Positions 9,799 to 18,641 of a stretch of 64,000 nt of DNA are shown here, piece by piece. Under the pieces are notes generated by a model, which did no database searches, had not been told where the DNA came from, and worked only from the letters and a program-made list of their open reading frames with translations. The DNA is taken from the NCBI RefSeq assembly GCF_002156385.1, contig NZ_MVJM01000003.1, forward strand, positions 731,504 through 795,503, read 5' to 3'. Position numbers and translations under genes: made by a program. Numbering within the stretch: position 1 is the first letter of the stretch; the number at the start of each line of letters is the position of its first letter. The DNA comes from Halalkalibacter urbisdiaboli (lineage in GTDB: Bacteria; Bacillota; Bacilli; Bacillales; Bacillaceae_D).

Positions 9799-9827
9799 GT
9801 GAAAATTTGTCCGTACAAGTATATAAT
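9799..9827 (+). promoter_or_regulatory. araDBA promoter with AraR operator in the spacer
   Basis: -35 GTGAAA (9799-9804), exactly 17 bp, -10 TATAAT (9822-9827). The spacer holds ATTTGTCCGTACAAGT (9805-9820), a near-perfect copy of the AraR operator pattern (ATTTGTACGTACAAAT). Repression by steric exclusion of RNA polymerase and release by L-arabinose is the expected mode, known from B. subtilis AraR. Confidence 0.82.
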
Positions 9828-9860: not shown

Positions 9861-10556
9861 ATGCTTGAGAATTTAAAACAAGCTGTTCTAGATGCAAACC
9901 TTGCCCTACCTAAATATAAGATGGTTACGTTTACATGGGGCAATGTTAGTGGTATTGACCGAGAAAAAGGTCTTGTCGTTATTAAGCCAAGTGGAGTCGA
10001 ATACGAAGACATGAAGGCCGAAGACATGGTTGTTGTAGATCTAGATGGAAACGTCGTTGAAGGGAAGTTGAAGCCTTCATCTGATACACCAACCCATGTT
10101 GTATTATACAAGGCTTTTCCTGAAATCGGGGGAATTGTACATACACACTCTCCGGGGGCAACAAGTTGGGCACAAGCTGGTCGAGGAATTCCTGCACTTG
10201 GTACAACACATGCTGATTATTTTTATGGTGAAATTCCGTGTACGCGTAAAATGACGGAGGAAGAAATTAAAGGGGCATACGAGCTAGAGACGGGGAATGT
10301 AATTGTCGAAACATTTAAGGTGAACAACATTGATCCTAATATGGTTCCTGGTGTTTTAGTTAATTGTCACGCTCCTTTTGCTTGGGGTACGAATCCAGAT
10401 AATGCGGTTCACAATGCTGTTGTTCTTGAAGAAGTTGCGAAAATGGCGACAAATACATTCACATTAAACCCTAACGTAGAAGCAATGGACCAAACGTTGC
10501 TTGATAAGCATTTTTTAAGAAAACATGGTGCGAATGCTTATTACGGACAAAAATAA
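9861..10556 (+). CDS. araD: L-ribulose-5-phosphate 4-epimerase
   Basis: 231-residue class II aldolase-fold enzyme converting L-ribulose-5-phosphate to D-xylulose-5-phosphate. [19 protein letters not shown] forms the phosphate-binding region, and [12 protein letters not shown] with [12 protein letters not shown] supplies the zinc-binding histidines near residues 95, 97 and 116-120. Length matches AraD. It is first in the araD-araB-araA operon, a different order from B. subtilis araA-araB-araD, and is directly downstream of the AraR-controlled promoter. RBS AAAGGAG. Confidence 0.94.
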
Positions 10557-10571
10557 TAATAGGAGGGATAA

Positions 10572-12236
10572 TTGATAAAAAAATATACAATTGGCGTTGA
10601 TTTCGGAACTGGTTCTGGTCGTGCAGTTCTTGTTGATTTATCAAACGGAACAGAGGTTGCCGATCATGTGACAGAATACCGTCATGGCGTGATTGCTGAG
10701 TATTTACCTGAATCAGGAGTAAAGTTGGAACATGAATGGGCGCTTCAGCATCCACGTGACTATATTGAAGTGTTAACAACATCTGTTTCGGCAGTGATTA
10801 AAGAATCAGGAGTAAATCCTGAAGATGTAATTGGACTAGGGATTGATTTTACTGCTTGCACGATGCTTCCAGTTGATAATAAGGGAGAGCCGCTTTGCTT
10901 TAAGCAAGAGTTAGCGCAACGCCCACATAGCTGGTTAAAGCTGTGGAAGCACCATGCAGCGCAAGATGAAGCAAATAAAATCAATGAAATTGCTGAACAA
11001 AGAGGAGAAAATTTTTTACCAAGATACGGTGGGAAAATTTCCTCAGAATGGATGCTTGCAAAGGTTTGGCAAATCCTTGATGAAGATCGTGAAATTTATG
11101 ACATGACGGATCAGTTCCTTGAGGCGACTGACTGGGTTGTCTTTAAAATGACAGGCAATATTACAAAAAACAGTTGTACGGCTGGTTATAAAGCAAATTG
11201 GCATAAAAAAGAAGGTTATCCTTCTAAAGAGTTTTTCAAAGCGCTTGACCCAAGACTTGAAAACCTCACTGAAACAAAGCTTCGTGGTGAGATTTTCCCA
11301 CTAGGAACAAAAGCTGGTGAATTAACAGAGGAAATGGCGGCGTTAATGGGCTTAAAGCCAGGCATTGCGATTGCTGTTGGGAATGTTGATGCTCATGCTG
11401 CAGTTCCGGGTGTTGGTGTAACGGAACCAGGAAAGCTTGTTATGGCAATGGGAACATCAATCTGCCACATGCTTTTAAGTACAGAAGAAAGAGAAGTAGA
11501 AGGCATGTGCGGTGTCGTTGAAGACGGAATTATTCCTGGTTATCTCGGCTATGAAGCGGGTCAATCAGCGGTTGGGGATATTTTCGCATGGTATGTTGAA
11601 AATGCAGTTCCTGCTTATGTGAAAGAAGAAGCTGAAAAAGCGGGTGTAAACGTTCATGCATGGCTTGAAGAGCAAGCATCAAAATATCGTCCAGGACAAT
11701 CAGGTCTACTAGCACTTGATTGGTGGAATGGAAATCGTTCAGTCTTAGTTGACACTGAATTAAGTGGACTACTCATTGGCGCGACATTACTAACAAAGCC
11801 TGAGGAAATTTATCGTGCATTATTAGAAGCTACAGCTTTCGGTACGCGTAAGATCGTCGATGCTTTCCATAACAACGGTGTTCCTGTTGAGGAGTTGTAT
11901 GCTTGCGGTGGTCTACCTCAGAAGAACCGTCTACTTATGCAAATTTATGCTGATGTTATGAATCGTTCAATTAAAGTAGCAGATTCTAAACAAACACCAG
12001 CTCTAGGTGCAGCGATGTTTGGTGCGGTTGCTGCTGGGGCGGATAAAGGTGGTTATGACAGTATTGTTGATGCAGCAAAGAAAATGGCACGTGTGAGGGA
12101 AGAAGCGTTCGAACCAATTCCTGAAAATGTTGCGATTTATGAAAAGTTGTATCAAGAATATTCAACGTTACATGATTATTTCGGTCGTGGTGAAAATGAT
12201 GTCATGAAACGCTTAAAAGCAATTAGGCAAGGCTAA
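10572..12236 (+). CDS. araB: L-ribulokinase
   Basis: 554-residue FGGY-family kinase phosphorylating L-ribulose to L-ribulose-5-phosphate with ATP. N-terminal phosphate loop [15 protein letters not shown] is present; [12 protein letters not shown] is the adenosine/hexokinase-type motif; [14 protein letters not shown] carries the catalytic aspartate; [20 protein letters not shown] is the FGGY C-terminal signature. Start is TTG 10572, forced by AGGAGG six nucleotides upstream and no better in-frame codon. It begins 15 bp after araD. Confidence 0.94.
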
Positions 12237-12263
12237 TACTATTTAAATTAGGAGGAAGTTAAC

Positions 12264-13751
12264 ATGTTAAAAGTGAAACCTTATGAATTTTGGTTTGTAA
12301 CAGGAAGTCAGCATTTATATGGGGAAGAGACGCTAAAGCAAGTTGCGGAGCATTCTCAAAAAATCACAGATGGCTTAAACAGTGAAGGGAATTTCCCTTT
12401 TAAAATCGTATTCAAACCTGTTCTAACAAATCCCGATTCCATTCGTCGTTTATGTATTGATGCGAATACAGATGATAATTGTGCAGGGATTATTACATGG
12501 ATGCACACATTCTCGCCAGCAAAAATGTGGATTGCAGGCCTGTCTGTTCTAAACAAGCCATTACTACATTTACACACTCAATTTAACCGTGACATCCCAT
12601 GGGATAAAATTGACATGGATTTTATGAATTTAAATCAATCTGCTCATGGTGATAGAGAGTATGGGTTTATCGGAGCTCGCATGAATGTAGCTCGTAAAGT
12701 TGTAGTAGGTCACTGGCAGGATAAAAACGTAATTGGTCGCATTGCCGACTGGATGCAAACAGCTGTTGGGGTTACAGATGGGAAAAACCTTAAGATTGCC
12801 CGCTTCGGGGATAACATGCGTGAAGTTGCTGTAACAGAGGGTGACAAGGTTGAAGCACAAATTAAATTTGGCTGGTCTATTTCCGGTTACGGTATCGGTG
12901 ATCTTGTTCAACATGTGAATTCAGTTTCTGATAGCCAAGTAAAGGCATTATTTGATGAATATAACGAGCTATATGAAATCGACCCAGAAGGTTTAAAGTC
13001 TGGTTCCTATCAAGAGTCAATCCTAGAACAGGCAAGAATTGAACTAGGAATGAGATCGTTCTTAGAAGAAGGTGGGTTCCAAGCGTTTACGACGACGTTT
13101 GAGGATTTACATGGTATGAAACAATTACCTGGTTTAGCTGTTCAACGTTTAATGGCAGATGGCTATGGATTCGCAGGCGAAGGGGATTGGAAAACAGCAG
13201 CACTTCTTCGTGTGATGAAAATCATGGCAAACAATAAAGGTACTTCATTCATGGAAGACTATACGTATCACCTAGATCCGAGCAACGAGTTAGTGTTAGG
13301 TTCTCACATGCTAGAAATTTGCCCGACTGTTGCGGCAAACAAACCTAAAATCAAGGTACACCCATTAGGAATCGGTGGTAAAGATGATCCTGCACGTATG
13401 GTGTTTGATGGTGCTGCAGGCCCAGCTCTTAATGCATCTCTTATCGACTTAGGACACCGCTTCCGTTTAGTGGTTAATACAGTAAATGCAGTTGAGCCAC
13501 AGCAGCCAATGCCAAATTTACCTGTAGCCCAAGTGTTATGGAAGCCTGAACCATCTTTAAATGAGTCCGCAGAAGCTTGGATTTATGCAGGTGGTGCTCA
13601 CCATACTGTATTCTCATTCGATGTTTCAGTTGATCAGTTGTATGATTGGTCTGTTATGACAGATGTTGAATGTGTCATCATTGATAAGGATTTAAAGATG
13701 ATTCCGTTCCGCAACGAACTTAAATGGAGTGACGTCGCTCGCAAGTTTTAA
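12264..13751 (+). CDS. araA: L-arabinose isomerase
   Basis: 495-residue metal-dependent isomerase converting L-arabinose to L-ribulose, the entry step of the pathway. N-terminus [16 protein letters not shown] is diagnostic; [29 protein letters not shown] (catalytic/metal glutamate near 307) and the SHMLEICPT and GHRFRL segments complete the Mn-binding site. Full family length. Last gene of araD-araB-araA, 27 bp after araB with GGAGG upstream, and followed by a hairpin at 13783. Confidence 0.95.
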
Positions 13752-13888: not shown

Positions 13889-13943
13889 CTTTAAGCGCAT
13901 AGCGTTCAGATAGAGTAGATGAAGCATTGACGAGGTGTCACAC

Positions 13944-15062
13944 ATGCAAACAAAATACAATATGGTGAAACAAGCAATCAAATCAAAAATTTTAGATGGT
14001 TCTATTGTTCCCCATCAGAAAATTAGTTCGGAAAACGAACTGATGAAGCAATTTAGTGTTAGCCGGCACACGACACGGAAAGCAATAGGTGAATTAGTGA
14101 ATGAAGGCTGGCTTTATCGCTCACAAGGTGCGGGTACATTTTGTGCTGACAGACAGCATGAAGAGGAGAGCAATAAACCTACGGATACGAAAAGAATTGC
14201 CATTATTACGACCTATATTTCAGATTATATTTTCCCTACGATTATTCGTGGTGCAGAATCTCATTTTAGTGAGCATGGTTACCAAGTAAGTGTTTTTAGT
14301 ACGAATAATGATGTAGATAAAGAAAAGAGCTTTTTAGAAAGCATCCTTTCACAACAATTTGACGGAATCATCATTGAGCCGACGAGAAGTGCGAATTCAA
14401 CAGCGAATCTTAATTACTTTTTTAATTTGGAACGATTAAATATTCCTTATATTATGATTAATGCCTTCTATGATGAACTTGATCCAATTTGTTTAATTAT
14501 GGATGATGAAAAGGGCGGCTATATCCAAACGGAACATTTACTCAAGCTAGGACATAAGAAAATCCTTGGTTTTTTTAAGACAGATGATATCCAAGGGAAA
14601 AAGCGGTTAAAAGGTTATGTAAATGCTCATCGTCAGTTTGGCGTTCCGATCGATTCGAATAATATTATTACTTACAATACTGAAGAAAAAAAGACAAAAC
14701 CAGTTGAAGAACTAAGAGAACGATTAGGTCATTCTTTTGATCGACCGACGGCTTTGATTAGCTATAATGACCAATTAGCTTTAACATTATTAGATGTCTT
14801 AAGAGACCATGATATGAAGATTCCTACTGAGATGTCTATTGTAGGCTACGACGATTCTTTTTTAGCACAAGCATCTGAGGTCAAGCTAACAACAATAAAA
14901 CACCCAAAACATGAAATGGGTCAAATGGCTGCGAAAATGATTATGAAATTGATTCAAGAAAAACAATCGAGTCATAGTCGTAAAGAGAAAGTAGAATCAA
15001 TTATCTATGAGCCGGAACTTGTCATTCGAAATTCTACAAGTACGGTAGAACAATGTGAGTAA
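13944..15062 (+). CDS. araR: Arabinose repressor AraR (GntR HTH + LacI sensor)
   Basis: 372-residue chimeric regulator. Residues 1-70 are a GntR-type winged helix (KISSENELMKQFSVSRHTTRKAIGELVNEGWL, then GAGTF). Residues ~85-365 are a LacI/periplasmic-binding-like sensor (RIAIITTYISDYIFPTIIRGAE; FDGIIIEPTRSA; STVGYDD-like IVGYDDSFLA; TTIKHPKHEMG), as in B. subtilis AraR, which binds L-arabinose. ATG 13944 chosen since GAGGTG (13932-13937) is its ribosome site and overlaps the alternative GTG 13935. Own operator-like box upstream. Confidence 0.92.
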   Translation: MQTKYNMVKQAIKSKILDGSIVPHQKISSENELMKQFSVSRHTTRKAIGELVNEGWLYRSQGAGTFCADRQHEEESNKPTDTKRIAIITTYISDYIFPTIIRGAESHFSEHGYQVSVFSTNNDVDKEKSFLESILSQQFDGIIIEPTRSANSTANLNYFFNLERLNIPYIMINAFYDELDPICLIMDDEKGGYIQTEHLLKLGHKKILGFFKTDDIQGKKRLKGYVNAHRQFGVPIDSNNIITYNTEEKKTKPVEELRERLGHSFDRPTALISYNDQLALTLLDVLRDHDMKIPTEMSIVGYDDSFLAQASEVKLTTIKHPKHEMGQMAAKMIMKLIQEKQSSHSRKEKVESIIYEPELVIRNSTSTVEQCE

Positions 15063-15103: not shown

Positions 15104-16381
15104 TTATGTTAGTTTAAGTAACATGGAAGAATGAGGTTGTAAAAGGGAGGAAACACGATCGGCAGTTTCTAAGTCTCTCTGATTCCAAAGGTCTCTTATG
15201 CTTTTAGAGGACGCAATCCCTAGATCATTAAAGGAAACGTCTAACGTTTGTGGAGTTTCACTAAGATTAAATAAAGCTACATACGTTTCATCCGACCATC
15301 CTTTAGCCGTCCAAACAACCTTATCATCTTTTCGATACAATAGACGATTGCTGTGGCTGTTTTGATGTACAGAAAGTACCTCGCGATTAGTCAGCAATGA
15401 ATGTGTCCAATCATCATTATCTCTTAGCTCTCCACCAAACATAAGTGGTGAACGAAAAATTGACCAAAGAGTCATCATCGTTACTTGCTCATCCTTTGTA
15501 AATCTCGTCCAACGATCTGCGCCTCCACCATCTACAGAACGAATACCAATATGGCCAAGTGGCAACATATCGCAATCTGGCCAATGCCCCGGTCCGACAT
15601 GCTTTTCCCATTTCTCGCAACGTTCAAACATATCGTAGAGGAGATGCCAATGATCCCAATAGTCGTCTGTCATTCGCCACATATTAGCATTTTGTATTAA
15701 CGACTCCGCGTATTCAAGTGGAGCTGGGCCAGGAGAGAGACTTAACACGATTGGTCGACCACAACGATCGATTGCTCGACGAATCATGATAATTTCGTCA
15801 AGATGTGTATCGTATAGTTTAGAAGCCGCAATATCATCCACTTTTATAAAATCTACACCCCATTCAGCATAAAGCTGAAATAAGGAATCGTAATAAGCTT
15901 GTGCACCCGCAACCGAAGAATCAACACCATACATATCCGTATTCCAAGGGCAAATTGAATTAGGATGTGCGATATCTCGAGCTGTTGCAGTAGTTCCAAG
16001 AATGGCTGAGTTTGCATGAACGGCCTGCCTTGGAATTCCTCTCATAATATGTATACCAAACTTTAATCCTAATGAATGGACATAATCAGCTAACGGTTTA
16101 AATCCTTGCCCATTTTTAGCTGATGGAAAACGATTCGTAGCTGGTAATAATCTAGAGTACTCATCCATTTCTAACGGTGCAAATTTGTGATAGATGGATG
16201 AATTGGCAGTTGGTTCAAACCATTGTATGTCAACAACGACATAATCCCAGCCAAACTCTTTCAAATGCTTTGCCATATAATCTGCATTTCCGCGAACTTC
16301 TTCTTCGGTTACGCTAGCTCCGTAACAATCCCAGCTATTCCAACCCATAGGTGGGGTTTTCGCTATTTCATGGTGGTTCAA
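15104..16381 (-). CDS. GH27 glycosidase, likely beta-L-arabinopyranosidase
   Basis: 425-residue intracellular GH27 enzyme (no signal peptide). TIM-barrel landmarks: PPMGWNSWDCYG near the start, LPLADYVHSLGLKFGIHI-type segment, nucleophile DFIKVDDI, and acid/base region WRMTDDYWDHW; then a C-terminal beta-sandwich. Usual GH27 alpha-galactosidases carry IDDCW after strand 2; here it reads VDIQW, replacing the aspartate that contacts the galactose C6 hydroxyl by isoleucine, as in the Geobacillus arabinan-cluster enzyme Abp. With araR next door, L-arabinopyranoside is the likelier substrate. TTG 16381 chosen: GGAGGG ends 7 nt upstream; longer ATG starts (16387, 16423) are poorly spaced. Confidence 0.8.
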   Translation of the reverse strand: MNHHEIAKTPPMGWNSWDCYGASVTEEEVRGNADYMAKHLKEFGWDYVVVDIQWFEPTANSSIYHKFAPLEMDEYSRLLPATNRFPSAKNGQGFKPLADYVHSLGLKFGIHIMRGIPRQAVHANSAILGTTATARDIAHPNSICPWNTDMYGVDSSVAGAQAYYDSLFQLYAEWGVDFIKVDDIAASKLYDTHLDEIIMIRRAIDRCGRPIVLSLSPGPAPLEYAESLIQNANMWRMTDDYWDHWHLLYDMFERCEKWEKHVGPGHWPDCDMLPLGHIGIRSVDGGGADRWTRFTKDEQVTMMTLWSIFRSPLMFGGELRDNDDWTHSLLTNREVLSVHQNSHSNRLLYRKDDKVVWTAKGWSDETYVALFNLSETPQTLDVSFNDLGIASSKSIRDLWNQRDLETADRVSSLLQPHSSMLLKLT

Positions 16382-16447
16382 AAGCATTCCCTCCATTTCT
16401 AGGACAATTTTATTCTCGTCCATTATATTAATATTATAATAAATATT

Positions 16448-16712: not shown

Positions 16713-17675
16713 ATGGTGAAACACGTATATAATAATCCAATAGTGGAACAAAGAGCAGATCCTTGGGTTTATAAGCATAGCGATGGTTATTATTATTTCA
16801 CCGCATCGGTACCTGAGTATGACCGAATTGAATTAAGACGCTCAAAGACAATACAAGGCTTGAATGTTGCCGAACAAGTAGTAGTATGGAGAAGGTATGA
16901 AACAGGGCCTATGAGTGCAAACATTTGGGCACCTGAGCTTCATTATATTCAAGGAAAATGGTATATCTATTTCGCAGCTGGGAGAAATGGAGAAACGAAT
17001 GAGGACCGATTTGACCATCGAATGTATGTATTAGAAAATGATTCAGAAAATCCGTTAGAGGGAAGTTGGTCTGAAAAAGGACAACTGAAAACAAACTGGG
17101 AATCGTTTTCCCTTGATGCAACAACATTTGAACATAATGGCTTTCGTTATTTAGTTTGGCCACAAAGAGACCCTAACATTAAAGGGAATTCAAATCTATA
17201 TATTGCTTTAATGGAAAACCCGTGGACGATTACAGGTCAACAAATTATGATTTCGCAACCTGAATTCGACTGGGAGAAAATTGGATATTTTGTAAATGAA
17301 GGACCTGCTGTGTTAAAAAGGAATGGAAAGATATTTATAACGTATTCCGCAAGTGCAACCGATCATCATTATTGCATGGGTTTGTTAGTAGCAGATGAAA
17401 AGAGCGATTTATTATCTGCAGCTTCGTGGACAAAATCTGAAGAACCTGTTTTAAAAACGAACGAAGATATTCAAATATATGGCCCAGGACATAACAGTTT
17501 TACTGTTTCAGAGGATGGGACCGAAGACGTGCTTATTTTTCATGCAAGAAATTATAAGGAGATTGAAGGTAATCCACTTAATGATCCAAATCGTCACATG
17601 AATGCTATCATTTTTGGCTGGGACGAACGTGGTTTCCCTGTCTTCGATTTGCAAGAAGAACAAATTGTTAAATGA
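16713..17675 (+). CDS. GH43 alpha-L-arabinofuranosidase
   Basis: 320-residue five-bladed beta-propeller glycosidase of family GH43, cytoplasmic (no signal peptide). Catalytic signatures: base aspartate in VEQRADPWVYKH (near 16), pKa-modulating aspartate in ESFSLDATTF (near 135), acid glutamate in FVNEGPAVLK (near 195), and the propeller histidine in YGPGHNSF (near 257). IWAPELHY is typical of arabinan-acting members, so exo-1,5-arabinooligosaccharide hydrolysis is the probable role. Divergent from the GH27 gene; RBS AGGAG. Confidence 0.88.
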   Translation: MVKHVYNNPIVEQRADPWVYKHSDGYYYFTASVPEYDRIELRRSKTIQGLNVAEQVVVWRRYETGPMSANIWAPELHYIQGKWYIYFAAGRNGETNEDRFDHRMYVLENDSENPLEGSWSEKGQLKTNWESFSLDATTFEHNGFRYLVWPQRDPNIKGNSNLYIALMENPWTITGQQIMISQPEFDWEKIGYFVNEGPAVLKRNGKIFITYSASATDHHYCMGLLVADEKSDLLSAASWTKSEEPVLKTNEDIQIYGPGHNSFTVSEDGTEDVLIFHARNYKEIEGNPLNDPNRHMNAIIFGWDERGFPVFDLQEEQIVK

Positions 17676-17723: not shown

Positions 17724-18641
17724 TTACTCTTGAACCTCTTTTGTATAAAAGAGGCGGAAAATGATATCTTGGTTATAATTCCCGAATCCTTTTCCAAATA
17801 ATGTTACACCGCCGACGTTTTCTGCATTTTCCTCAACAGCGATCCTAAATGTCCATTGTTTATCTCGGATTCTAACATTATTGATAGTAATGTCAGAGAT
17901 TTTATGACCGTCAACAAATGTTCCTTCTTCGGTAATTCGCAAAAACTTAAGGAGCCCGTATTGATTAATTACTTTTGGCCACCATTCTGGGGTGTATTTA
18001 CCGCGGCTATCACCGAAGTCACCAGGACTTGTCCATTTTCCTAATGGAACATCATTTAGTGTAAATGTAATATCTGACGGCCAGTTCTCATTCGTGAAGG
18101 GGGCTTCTGAAGAAAGCTCCATTGAGATTTCTAGCTCATTTGGATTATGTGTCGATAATAAGAAGTTAGGAACTTTGTACTCGATATATCCATGCTTAAA
18201 CCAAAGGATTTTCGCATTGACACGTTCAGGATCTAAAAAGTAGCGTGCTTCATCAAATTCACCGATGTACTTTTCTGGGGTAGCTAATCCACAGGTTGGA
18301 ACTACATCAAAGTCCGTATAATGTCCAACAGAAAGCTCAGTTTCATGGTACTCTCGCAACGTTGAAGTTAAGGTAGGGAAGAAAATTTCAATTTTTTCAA
18401 CGTTTAAAATACAGAGCTTCTGTACTCCAGCTTTCCCTGGAACCATTTCGGTACGAATAAGATCTGCTTTTTCGAGCTTTTTTATATGCATGGTCATTAT
18501 CGCGCTACTTAGTCCTACTGCATCTGCAAGCTCTTTAATATTCATTGAACGTTTGGATAAACATTGGATAACGGTAAGTCTAACCTTGCTTGCTAATGCT
18601 TCGTATACAGGTAAAGATTGTGTGGAGATATCTAACTGCAT
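17724..18641 (-). CDS. ArsR-type regulator with C-terminal sensor-like domain
   Basis: 305 residues. Residues ~8-85 form an ArsR/winged-helix domain (ALASKVRLTVIQCLSKRSMN, then ELADAVGLSSAIMTMHIKKLEKADLI). The remaining ~210 residues are beta-rich with many Trp/aromatic positions (KWTSPGDFGDSRGKYTPEWW, WTFRIAVEENAENVGGVTLFG), more like a ligand-binding or carbohydrate-related jelly-roll than a metal site; no ArsR metal-binding cysteine pair is evident. Its place beside GH43/GH27 suggests it senses a sugar or oligosaccharide (inference). Divergent from the MarR-type gene. Confidence 0.75.
   Translation of the reverse strand: MQLDISTQSLPVYEALASKVRLTVIQCLSKRSMNIKELADAVGLSSAIMTMHIKKLEKADLIRTEMVPGKAGVQKLCILNVEKIEIFFPTLTSTLREYHETELSVGHYTDFDVVPTCGLATPEKYIGEFDEARYFLDPERVNAKILWFKHGYIEYKVPNFLLSTHNPNELEISMELSSEAPFTNENWPSDITFTLNDVPLGKWTSPGDFGDSRGKYTPEWWPKVINQYGLLKFLRITEEGTFVDGHKISDITINNVRIRDKQWTFRIAVEENAENVGGVTLFGKGFGNYNQDIIFRLFYTKEVQE

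Follow-up and report, generated by a model that had tools for sequence, protein, structure and literature searches.

Abp-type β-L-arabinopyranosidases clip the pyranose form of L-arabinose off the side chains of plant polysaccharides. In Geobacillus strains, the abp gene lies within the arabinan utilization locus (PMC4194401). The specificity position of these GH27 enzymes is occupied by Ile or Glu in β-L-arabinopyranosidases, with Glu in SaArap27A from Streptomyces, and by Cys in bifunctional fungal enzymes (PMC4598101). A steric clash with the Ile is the proposed reason that galactosides are disfavored in GsAbp and CpArap27 (PMC4598101). When Asp replaces this Ile, galactosidase activity appears or rises and arabinopyranosidase activity drops, but the specificity is not swapped completely; the Abp variant I67D shows a 3-fold increase in the former and a 2.7-fold decrease in the latter, and CpArap27 I56D behaves in the same way (PMC4598101). 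The Ile together with the loops L6 to L8 defines GH27 Group VI (PMC4598101).

As judged from sequence comparison, a GH27 gene from Halalkalibacter urbisdiaboli very probably encodes an intracellular, retaining β-L-arabinopyranosidase orthologous to Abp from Geobacillus. It is located in a window of 64,000 nucleotides (the whole stretch of DNA analyzed) and is the only GH27 gene found in a search of the genome (Table 1). Pairwise alignment with Abp from Geobacillus stearothermophilus shows 307 of 424 positions to be identical (72%). Among solved structures, the protein matches Abp (4NX0) with an E value of 2.6e-219 and 3CC1 with an E value of 1e-213, and also 4NXK and 4NZF, after which the matches fall to α-galactosidases at 1e-34 and weaker. 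Pfam identifies both parts of the GH27 fold, the catalytic barrel Melibiase_2 (PF16499; E = 4e-28; 98.8 bits versus a cutoff of 23) and the C-terminal β-sandwich Melibiase_C (PF17801; E = 8e-14; 51.9 bits versus a cutoff of 22.9), and no NCBIfam model matches the protein.

Table 1. Features of the arabinose locus, in positions of the window
Feature	Position	Strand	Basis
Candidate AraR box upstream of araD, ATTTGTCCGTACAAGT	9805..9820	+	2/16 mismatches to the consensus of PMC4218819
araD, araB, araA (L-arabinose catabolism)	9861..13751	+	araA: NF002795, 849 bits versus a cutoff of 622; araD/araB: sequence and order
araR (arabinose repressor, GntR DNA-binding and LacI-type sensor domains)	13935..15062	+	3TB6 (AraR, best PDB match), E = 1e-88; 4EGY, E = 1e-18
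GH27 gene, predicted Abp-type β-L-arabinopyranosidase (TTG start, 425 aa)	15104..16381	-	Abp homology, Pfam, Shine-Dalgarno sequence
Predicted catalytic acid/base Asp codon (RMTDDYW, Asp254 = Abp Asp255)	15662..15664	-	Alignment
Predicted catalytic nucleophile Asp codon (KVDD, Asp196 = Abp Asp197)	15836..15838	-	Alignment
Specificity Ile codon (VVDIQW motif, Ile66)	16226..16228	-	Alignments with Abp and IDDCW paralogues
GH43 gene, exo-α-L-arabinofuranosidase type	16713..17675	+	Glyco_hydro_43 (Pfam), E = 2e-73; nearest PDB chains 9NXJ, 3K1U, 3AKF
ArsR-type HTH regulator gene	17724..18641	-	Pfam; also lies next to the Abp-type GH27 gene of H. halodurans and that of Evansella

The mechanical open reading frame of the gene runs on the minus strand from an ATG at 16423 to 15104 and comprises 439 amino acids. 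The TTG at 16381, which agrees with the gene span given in the first-pass annotation, is the likelier start because it is preceded by a Shine-Dalgarno sequence (GGAGGG, 7 nt upstream), because the alignment with Abp in the search of solved structures starts at residue 14 of the 439-residue frame and that of many GTDB relatives at about residue 15, and because of the position of a promoter-like pair. This pair (TTTACT-18-TATAAT, 16462 to 16433), which is a consensus match only, puts the predicted transcript start almost on the ATG at 16423. The ATG itself has no Shine-Dalgarno sequence and was rejected as the start. The residue numbers Ile66, Asp196, and Asp254 refer to the 439-residue frame. 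A secretion-type hydrophobic N terminus was not seen by eye on the protein, and the intracellular location would correspond to that of characterized relatives.

A GH27 enzyme with an Asp-to-Ile switch in the motif VDIQW had been proposed beforehand, to be checked by alignment with GH27 α-galactosidases and Abp. In these alignments, the Ile falls exactly at the predicted site: Ile66 stands opposite Ile67 of Abp and opposite the second Asp of VIDDCW in α-galactosidase paralogues of the same class, the position at which IDDCW-type enzymes carry the Asp for the C6 hydroxyl group of galactose. Both GH27 catalytic aspartates are present, with Asp196 and Asp254 opposite Asp197 and Asp255 of Abp in the pairwise alignment. 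In a second Abp sequence, that of 4NXK and 4NZF, position 197 is occupied by Ala; the Ala of 4NXK fits the role of this Asp as the nucleophile.

The 80 best GTDB relatives (55 to 75% identity), which stem from Bacillaceae, Paenibacillaceae, Clostridia, and some other groups, were aligned with the query and Abp to give 82 rows; as these were chosen by similarity, the alignment describes the Abp clade and not GH27 at large. In all 82 rows, the residue at the switch position is Ile, which argues against a chance occurrence, and both catalytic positions are Asp. Of these rows, 71 carry the motif as VDIQW and the remaining 11 as CDIQW. Among genomes of the same class, GH27 sequences with 66 to 69% identity to the query also carry VDIQW, and the IDDCW-type proteins are only 27 to 29% identical to it. 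Two insertions, the first following VDIQW and the second preceding the nucleophile, are common to the query and Abp and absent from the IDDCW paralogues. These insertions and the Ile aligned with Abp Ile67 match the loop-bearing GH27 Group VI at the sequence level; the loop names L6 to L8 are assigned from the text of PMC4598101, with L8 not separately delimited.

The prediction of a β-L-arabinopyranosidase, already made in the first-pass annotation, is supported by the identity to Abp, the Ile, the catalytic Asp pair, the loop insertions, and the position in an L-arabinose catabolic locus. Orthology carries more weight in this prediction than the Ile, which proves little by itself because no full change of specificity is achieved in relatives by single mutations. 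By analogy with characterized relatives, the substrates would be imported arabino- or arabinogalacto-oligosaccharides ending in β-L-arabinopyranose. The terminal residue would be cleaved off by double displacement with Asp196 as the nucleophile and Asp254 as the acid/base. Ile66 would occupy the room required by the C6 hydroxymethyl group of galactose, a steric mechanism likewise taken from relatives, and would favor the pentose over α-D-galactosides. The freed L-arabinose would then enter the AraA-AraB-AraD pathway, with α-L-arabinofuranose units trimmed by the enzyme of the divergent GH43 gene.

The domain names point to another function. The Pfam name of Melibiase_2 is "Alpha galactosidase A," the close homologue 3CC1 is titled a putative α-N-acetylgalactosaminidase, and homologues that carry the same Ile on enterobacterial plasmids are encoded next to a gene annotated melB. 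An α-D-galactosidase or α-N-acetylgalactosaminidase is nevertheless very improbable, given the replacement of the galactose-binding Asp by Ile, the low identity to the IDDCW enzymes, and the preference of characterized enzymes of the same clade for β-L-arabinopyranosides (PMC4598101); the title of 3CC1 is itself worded as putative. Abp retains limited activity with pNP-α-D-Galp (PMC4598101), as would be expected of a dual β-L-arabinopyranosidase/α-D-galactosidase with little discrimination, but wild-type enzymes with Ile either have a strong preference for the arabinoside or act on it exclusively (PMC4598101), which makes such a dual enzyme extremely improbable.

The GH27 gene and araR are transcribed toward each other, the GH27 and GH43 genes are transcribed away from each other, and both neighbors had been correctly recognized earlier. 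One of the PDB chains nearest to the GH43 protein, 3AKF, is a putative secreted α-L-arabinofuranosidase II. The genome contains 22 GH43 matches and 3 matches to the C-terminal domain of GH51-type arabinofuranosidases; from these matches, the host is probably a strong degrader of plant polysaccharides. Beyond the GH43 gene lies the gene of the ArsR-type regulator, whose long C-terminal part was matched by no Pfam model. In 10 of the 80 related loci, a homologue of this regulator (48 to 76% identity) is encoded no more than 6 kb from the GH27 gene. The Evansella locus (L018) contains araR, araA, araD, the GH27 gene, and the ArsR-type regulator gene. Only a minority of the relatives show an association with these ara genes within 6 kb; in most of the other relatives, the 6 kb around the GH27 gene yielded no ara, araR, GH43, or regulator gene.

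Apart from the candidate AraR box upstream of araD, a weak match with 5/16 mismatches precedes araR. No AraR box was found in the intergenic region between the GH27 and GH43 genes, where the best match has 6/16 mismatches, so control of the pair by AraR is not demonstrated; the same region contains no convincing cre site (best match with 2 mismatches). A scan of the whole genome for AraR boxes was uninformative, with 176 matches versus 190 for the reversed control. The pair might instead be run by the ArsR-type regulator, acting as a co-conserved and, to our knowledge, previously undescribed sensor of arabino-oligosaccharides or β-L-arabinopyranosides, a proposal that we consider rather unlikely.

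Abp-type GH27 genes also occur beside genes annotated melB and near IS26 on two conjugative plasmids, NZ_LT985249.1 from E. coli (L123:4510-7269) and NZ_CP089098.1 from Klebsiella (L124:5510-8269). The plasmid-encoded GH27 protein is 58% identical to the query and carries VDIQW; by the Ile rule, the plasmid pair may serve β-L-arabinopyranosides rather than melibiose.

The expectation that automated annotation would yield an α-galactosidase holds for the Pfam domain name but not for RefSeq, which calls close relatives, including the plasmid-borne ones, "glycoside hydrolase family 27 protein." Given these neutral names and the lack of an NCBIfam match, such a misannotation would stem from the Pfam naming. 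The rule that a bulky or nonacidic residue marks arabinopyranosidases fits the Ile but is too broad, as the residue in SaArap27A is Glu and the enzymes with Cys are bifunctional (PMC4598101). The main outcome is a confirmed annotation, with residue, clade, and locus pointing to a β-L-arabinopyranosidase against the Pfam-level name α-galactosidase. That the Ile is retained by all of the 80 best GTDB relatives suggests that the Asp/Ile rule is applicable to the whole clade.

The enzyme is one more ordinary representative of a type that is already known; the Asp-to-Ile switch, the steric mechanism, and the clade were already published in 2014 to 2015. With Abp from G. stearothermophilus T6 (4NX0, 4NXK, and 4NZF), it shares 72% identity, the Ile, the catalytic Asp pair, and the loop insertions; in contrast to the Geobacillus locus, the gene here forms a convergent pair with araR and a divergent pair with the GH43 gene, and the host is another species of Bacilli. 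CpArap27 from Chitinophaga pinensis, likewise a Group VI GH27 enzyme, carries Ile at its specificity site and has β-L-arabinopyranosidase activity (PMC4598101). It comes from another phylum and shares 53% identity with Abp (PMC4598101), and its likeness to the query runs via Abp and the published description. 3CC1, named Bh1870 in PMC4598101, is the protein from Halalkalibacterium halodurans and carries the arabinopyranosidase Ile. Its title, "putative alpha-N-acetylgalactosaminidase," is probably wrong, as indicated by this Ile and the ara gene neighborhood. Bh1870 shows ∼70% identity to the query, and its locus (L023) holds araABD, the GH27 gene, an ArsR-type regulator gene, and GH43 within 10 kb, along with ABC transporter-like genes recognized by eye; the two loci differ in gene order.
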